NCBI RefSeq assembly: GCF_001427825.1 | Contig: NZ_LMGT01000006.1 | Coordinates: forward strand, 62,001 to 126,000 | DNA: 64,000 nucleotides | Origin: Brevundimonas sp. Root608 | Lineage (GTDB): Bacteria > Pseudomonadota > Alphaproteobacteria > Caulobacterales > Caulobacteraceae | Direction of reading: 5' to 3' | Part shown: piece by piece, positions 48,315-48,808 of the stretch | Layout: each line of letters starts with the position of its first letter | Position numbering within the stretch: the first letter of the stretch is position 1 | The notes under the pieces: generated by a model | Told to the model about the DNA's origin: nothing | The model's input: only the letters and a program-made list of their open reading frames with translations | Databases searched by the model: none | Program-made: the position numbers and the translations under genes

Positions 48315-48362
48315 CGTCCAGCGCCGGCTCATCAGGACGCCGCACTCCCCTCAAGACCGTCA

Positions 48363-48383
48363 CCCTCGGGCTTGACCCGAGGG
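48363..48383. repeat. REP-like hairpin, left copy, before the GIY-YIG gene
   Basis: CCCTCGGG-CTTGA-CCCGAGGG, a perfect 8-bp stem with a 5-nt loop, between the GH92 stop and the GIY-YIG start. It is the inverted partner of the hairpin at 48721-48741, with complementary loop sequences (CTTGA versus TCAAG). Confidence 0.85.
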
Positions 48384-48406
48384 CCGGACGTTCCTCAGAT
48401 CGGTCC

Positions 48407-48808
48407 ATGGACAGCGAGCGCCGCCCGTTCATCGCCACCTATATCGAGGCCAGCCGACCGTTCGGCGTCCGCTACATCGGCATGACCAGCAACCTCTATG
48501 AGCGCGGGCGACAGCACCGCGACGGCGTCATCGAAGGCTTCACCAAACGCCACGAGTGCAATCTTCTGGTCTGGTACGAACAGCACGCGCTGGTCACGGA
48601 GGCCATCCGACGGGAGAAGGCCCTCAAGCGTTGGAAACGCGCGTGGAAGATGCAGTTGATCGAGGCGCGCAATCCTGATTGGGCGGACCTGTACCCATCG
48701 CTGTGCGGATCGGCGCCCGATCCTCGGATCAAGTCCGAGGATGACGGAGAGGGGAGTGTCGCGGCGTTCTTGAAGCGGCTGGGGCAGGCTCGGGACCTGG
48801 AGGACTAG
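48407..48808 (+). CDS. GIY-YIG nuclease-domain protein with repeat-derived tail
   Basis: 133 aa from ATG 48407. The GIY-YIG core covers residues ~8-85: ATYIEASRPFGVRYIGMTSN (the first motif is degenerate, the second RYIG intact), then the catalytic Arg region in LYERGRQHRDG, and HALVTEAIRREKALKRWKRA with the conserved Glu and Lys. It resembles the YhbQ/UPF0213 group. The end of the protein, DPRIKSEDDGEG, is encoded by the hairpin at 48721-48741, so the repeat has become part of the ORF. Single-domain nucleases of this group are of uncertain function. It sits alone between two convergent mannosidase genes. Confidence 0.85.
   Translation: MDSERRPFIATYIEASRPFGVRYIGMTSNLYERGRQHRDGVIEGFTKRHECNLLVWYEQHALVTEAIRREKALKRWKRAWKMQLIEARNPDWADLYPSLCGSAPDPRIKSEDDGEGSVAAFLKRLGQARDLED
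48721..48741. repeat. REP-like hairpin, right copy, inside the GIY-YIG coding region
   Basis: TCCTCGGA-TCAAG-TCCGAGGA, a perfect 8-bp stem with a 5-nt loop. Read on the minus strand it gives the same consensus as the copy at 48363-48383, so the two are in opposite orientation 338 bp apart and bracket the GIY-YIG domain. Confidence 0.85.

Follow-up and report, generated by a model that had tools for sequence, protein, structure and literature searches.

The window analyzed in this work, a stretch of 64 kb, comes from a Brevundimonas-type genome rated 100% complete. Within it a 391-bp unit (48357..48747, forward strand) sits between the convergent genes of GH92 and GH47, in agreement with the earlier note on this DNA, which had placed it between two convergent mannosidase genes. 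This unit is composed of a CGTC hairpin, a GIY-YIG gene, and an inverted CGTC hairpin, with 333 bp between the hairpins. The left hairpin (48358..48385, forward strand) carries the CGTC tag, the stem ACCCTCGGG/CCCGAGGGC, and the loop CTTGA; the right hairpin (48719..48746, reverse strand) is an inverted copy of it, likewise with a 5-nt loop, and the paired hairpins in opposite orientation that had been described around the GIY-YIG core are thus confirmed. The nuclease gene (48407..48808, forward strand; 133 aa; PF01541) includes the right hairpin, and translation of the ORF bore out that this copy encodes the residues DPRIKSEDDG. The right hairpin is followed by a conserved extension (48748..48782, forward strand) which encodes the tail helix EGSVAAFLKRL and is common to units of the same subfamily at other loci.

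The hairpin pattern has these two matches in the whole window and no others, while 0 were expected from 100 shuffles, which rules out chance hairpins. Both copies fold as single-stranded DNA (z -3.3 and -3.7), and a comparison with Rfam matched no known RNA. Within the surrounding 1.5 kb, no inverted repeat is longer than the one formed by 48357-48390 and 48714-48747 (34 nt, 82%). The unit has inverted ends; of the target-site duplication which accompanies terminal inverted repeats in insertion sequences and MITEs, no clean instance was found. It should be noted that both hairpins are bordered on their outer side by the arms of a second, weaker inverted repeat, CGCCGCACTCCCCTC, with the outer-left arm at 48338..48352 (no strand assigned) and its partner at 48749-48763 (pair I17, 87% complementary); this may be an older or longer end of the element.

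The window ORF matches PF01541 (1.1e-10; 42 bits against a curated cut-off of 22.6), and GIY-YIG is the sole Pfam match of the protein, with neither a HuH nor a Y1_Tnp domain. The columns conserved in the family include Y12, Y23, R33, H37, E70, and N89; across 25 sequences Y12, Y23, E70, and N89 are invariant and R33 is nearly so. The Tyr, Tyr, Arg, Glu, and Asn positions of GIY-YIG proteins are catalytic. In the AlphaFold model (mean pLDDT 87.6) the GIY-YIG domain is confident, and the repeat-encoded stretch appears as a low-confidence linker leading into a C-terminal helix, which is conserved in the Brevundimonas subfamily. The tail of the window protein is repeat-derived, as the earlier note had proposed, but this does not extend to the system as a whole: only two of the 31 nucleases of a wider sample have a repeat-encoded tail, which rejects it as a general trait and makes it a feature of the Brevundimonas subfamily. 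The nearest solved sequences are the UPF0213 proteins BH0048 (PDB 1ZG2; E 1.8e-6) and EF2693 (PDB 1YWL; E 0.0042). Proteins of the UPF0213 group are free-standing and share the single-domain fold but are only distantly related, and we know of no repeat association for them. The window nuclease had no match in PADLOC or PHROGs, and assignment to a defense gene or phage family was rejected on these grounds.

The hairpin is a dispersed repeat of its own genome, where pattern searches, from which all genome-wide hairpin counts were obtained, located approximately 58 copies with no more than one mismatch. Twenty-six inverted pairs, with CGTC at the outer ends, enclose 46-84 bp (in most cases 75-80) and have the layout that is called REPIN. 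Wider pairs number only two; in both, the hairpins are exactly 333 bp apart and enclose a GIY-YIG gene. The second of these units is on another contig, has the same frame, and encodes a nuclease 80% identical to that of the window. A third GIY-YIG gene of the genome, a 672-aa frame which is probably UvrC, has no such flanking repeat. At their inner ends the short pairs are similar to the units (p 4e-4 on the left and 0.02 on the right), as would be expected if the short pairs were derivatives of the units by internal deletion. No Y1_Tnp domain (PF01797, RAYT-type) was found in the genome of the window, so a RAYT was rejected as the mobilizer there, and just one of 62 genomes of the genus has this domain; the pairs are for this reason regarded as REPIN-like and not as RAYT-type REPINs.

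Homologues of the nuclease were found in 87 of 149 genomes of the family, with one to six copies each, and, at a stricter threshold, in 103 genomes out of a phylum-wide sample of 399. The association with hairpins was analyzed in 60 regions, each of up to 20 kb, around nuclease genes of related genomes. The density of CGTC hairpins at 0-100 bp from the nuclease was 4.5 per kb in the family, 4.6 in the order and class, and 3.7 in other classes, against a background past 1 kb of about 0.03-0.3 per kb, an enrichment of about 20-fold or more in the family, class, and phylum samples. In the 60 regions the density of CGTC hairpins up to 200 bp from the nuclease was some 22 times that at 1-3 kb, and CGTC was the top tag among all 4-mers preceding near-gene hairpins (87 occurrences; 3.6 vs. 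0.16 per kb). The comparison of hairpin frequency near GIY-YIG genes and elsewhere, which had been proposed as a check, therefore gave strong enrichment at this family. Long inverted repeats (score of at least 20) span 35 of the 60 nuclease genes but one of 360 other ORFs, and strict framing on both sides was seen for 15 of the 60 nucleases and two of 744 ORFs (p 2.5e-16). These control ORFs rule out that the hairpins are ordinary terminators beside any gene. About 40% of the nuclease family members are without a strong spanning repeat. Named cases with flanking repeats include those of Azospirillum, Novosphingobium pNL2, Rhizobium, Sinorhizobium, and Neisseria gonorrhoeae (dRS3), the last being a single case and only suggestive because the dRS3 repeat is so dense in that species; at single loci of Bacteroidota and Firmicutes the inverted repeats are shorter or less regular. 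In Azospirillum lipoferum the unit (L243, 2983-3276) sits between sufB and sufC.

Hairpin stems vary widely between loci, and their similarity rises with the identity of the nucleases (Mantel r 0.43, p 0.0005; 75 loci in 53 genomes). Hairpins have a similarity of 0.61-0.63 to the hairpins of nucleases from other genomes that share 60-80% identity, compared to 0.29 for the hairpins of other nucleases of the same genome (p 8e-6 or lower); it should be noted that the loci are not fully independent and that these p-values serve as guides. One nuclease subfamily is flanked by hairpins with a CCGCTC tag in place of CGTC, consistently over several genomes (L246, L264, L099, L250, and L256), and the CTCATCCCC type is the hairpin of another subfamily. 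That the hairpin sequence tracks the nuclease and not the host genome is, as judged from these sequence comparisons, well supported, as is the nuclease-hairpin association itself.

Copy numbers follow the same pattern. Among Brevundimonas genomes, the nine that carry a close nuclease have 6-44 exact copies of the window hairpin and the fifteen that do not have 0-7 (means of 19.7 and 2.5, p 4e-5, kinship ignored). For a second hairpin, for which the direction of the difference was predicted beforehand, carriers average 13.5 copies against 4.4 (p 6e-5, kinship ignored). There are exceptions in both directions, with hairpins present without a detected cognate nuclease, as in genomes G565 (20 copies) and G539 (17), and a few nuclease carriers with zero copies of the tested hairpin. 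One alternative view is that the association is passive, i.e., that REPs pile up by small dispensable intergenic genes by chance or tolerance and have no functional link with the nuclease. REPs do generally favor intergenic sites downstream of genes (PMC3733652), but such framing is all but absent from the other ORFs of these regions (1/360; 2/744), and the type of hairpin goes with the nuclease subfamily from genome to genome while differing between paralogues of the same genome. A passive association is strongly disfavored and in our opinion very improbable.

The dynamics of the sites were addressed by comparing units and hairpin pairs between loci and between relatives. Compared across loci, the units share DNA homology that starts at the left hairpin, within about 4 bp of its outer end, and runs to the right hairpin or ~36 bp further. 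In two relatives GH92 and GH47 are adjacent without the unit, which means that the gene is no fixed feature of the locus, a check that had likewise been proposed; in three other Brevundimonas (L176, L177, and L181) the junction holds unrelated sequence with apparent coding capacity, and the junction may for this reason be an insertion hot spot. Searches of plasmids with the flanks of the window found nothing. Eight orthologous hairpin-pair sites were compared between sister species, using a joined-flank query for the sole purpose of locating them: three were conserved, two differed by presence or absence, two contained another hairpin family, and one had its interior inverted in place. At this last site (L305/L319) the two species have collinear flanks, and the interior of the short pair matches the reverse complement at 98% identity; such an inversion could have arisen by recombination between the hairpins, for which the nuclease is not needed. 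The presence of a different REP family in the same intergenic site of a sister species (L306/L325 and L307/L331) suggests site hot spots or replacement. In Sinorhizobium meliloti, strains differ from one another in the corresponding repeat at a single site, where several allelic states with deletion scars, and no precise empty site, were seen. Neither a clean target-site duplication nor a precise insertion footprint was found at the sites compared.

GIY-YIG is a classic fold of homing endonucleases, and the gene could be read as a parasite of the homing type, which inserts within existing REPINs and spreads by cutting of REP sites and repair copying without being the maker of the REPINs. The units do fill the interior of a hairpin pair whose outer ends are the same, and REP pairs do occur in genomes without a detected cognate gene; the unit loci are however unrelated, with homology past the hairpins limited to the ~36 bp beyond the right one, nuclease carriers hold more hairpins, and the inner ends of the REPINs resemble those of the unit (p 4e-4 and 0.02) as those of deletion derivatives would. 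We consider this origin unlikely. The window ORF shares its nuclease fold and a selfish-element logic with homing endonucleases of the I-TevI type, but differs from these in being free-standing, with no intron or intein and no fixed homing site, and in being flanked by multi-copy hairpins. The nuclease might instead serve the host by processing REPs, for instance cruciforms at replication forks, in the manner of Slx1 or UvrC, with its location beside hairpins reflecting self-regulation and not mobility. In structure comparison the nearest folds are indeed those of UPF0213, Slx1, and UvrC, all of them weak (best E 0.0047), and an entire REPIN folds as a single long stem (z -8.6). The patchy distribution of the nuclease (87 of 149 genomes, one to six copies), the two units in one genome, and the absence from the locus in relatives look mobile rather than housekeeping, and a host function of this kind appears quite improbable.

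The best explanation, to which we assign a probability of about 0.74, is that the GIY-YIG nuclease mobilizes or maintains the CGTC REPs. The unit would then represent a REP-type element reduced to its minimum, in which a GIY-YIG nuclease takes the place of the HuH/Y1 transposase of RAYT systems. From the comparative data we infer binding and hairpin cleavage by the enzyme, and a transposition or repair pathway, along the following lines. The nuclease would recognize the tagged hairpins of its own subfamily and cut at or near the hairpin base, either in a single-strand hairpin or in an extruded cruciform; cutting would mobilize or maintain its own gene-bearing unit through excision, inversion, or copying by repair, and the same activity would act in trans on the shorter gene-less hairpin pairs, the REPINs. 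The earlier note had suggested a mobile or repeat-maintaining unit; that the unit is not fixed at its locus and that hairpins are enriched around the gene agrees with this, while the role of the enzyme in moving or maintaining it is proposed here as the probable one.

The comparison with RAYTs drawn in the same note, a similar logic with another nuclease fold, holds for the anatomy, the cognate matching, and the dispersed non-autonomous pairs. As in the system of RAYTs (REP-associated tyrosine transposases) and REPINs (Bertels and Rainey, 2011; PMC3116915), the nuclease gene is framed by REPs, inverted REP pairs of ~100 bp are dispersed in the genome, every nuclease has its own REP, and nuclease diversity follows repeat diversity; the pairs are inverted REP doublets which are repeated, foldable, and conserved in spacing. 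Unlike that system the enzyme is a GIY-YIG protein and not HuH/Y1, no RAYT was found in the same genome, and the repeats are tagged with CGTC (or CCGCTC) and not GTAG. RAYTs are moreover described as single-copy (PMC3116915), whereas here two related units with the same hairpin are found in one genome.

CGTC REPs have been described as having a CGTC tag, a stem of 8-9 bp, and a loop of 4-5 nt, and as occurring mostly in opposite-orientation pairs and mainly in Alphaproteobacteria, with the dRS3 of Neisseria in the class (Di Nocera et al., 2013; PMC3733652). The window hairpins agree in tag, stem, and loop, and in forming multi-copy inverted dimers; the 3-bp tail, which is CCA in most but not all CGTC REPs (PMC3733652), is CGG or CAG in the window and CCA in many relatives. 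The difference lies in the GIY-YIG gene family found associated here, since CGTC REPs were reported not to be associated with transposase genes and to have no dedicated transposase (Di Nocera et al., 2013; PMC3733652). The list of intragenic REPs in that work leaves out those within hypothetical proteins of under 120 aa, and a survey of 2025 makes no mention of a nuclease (PMC12306157). A full-text literature search, with preprints and most subscription papers outside its scope, returned no paper tying GIY-YIG to REPs. The GIY-YIG family is the best candidate for the dedicated enzyme that CGTC REPs were said to lack. With somewhat less confidence we favor the broader view that these units form a widespread new class of mobile element with a stand-alone GIY-YIG nuclease as its only protein. 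This nuclease would be the dedicated enzyme of the CGTC REPs, with dRS3 and RIME-type repeats counted among that superfamily; the class would occur in Proteobacteria and, it appears, in further phyla, and would work alongside the HuH RAYT system without depending on it.

REP repeats are common in bacteria and CGTC is one of their two big superfamilies. The 2013 catalogue left open how CGTC REPs spread, a question that can be tested directly with a cognate nuclease whose catalytic residues are conserved. If our reading is correct, replicators of the REP type have at least two origins, based on unrelated enzymes, and there would be a biological reason for many annotations of a "GIY-YIG nuclease family protein" and for recurrent tails such as DPRVKPEDD. 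The presumed rhizobial RIME1 of Sinorhizobium and the dRS3 of N. gonorrhoeae are alike in flanking members of this same GIY-YIG family, although in the literature searched both are catalogued as repeats without a linked enzyme. The repeat that flanks the Sinorhizobium nucleases (L241, 2355-2918, and L242) is a mosaic and contains an inner GC palindrome. This mosaic repeat looks like, and is presumably, RIME1. One Neisseria gonorrhoeae record, NZ_CP119140.1 (L236; 2.17 Mb), is filed as a plasmid and appears to be the chromosome.
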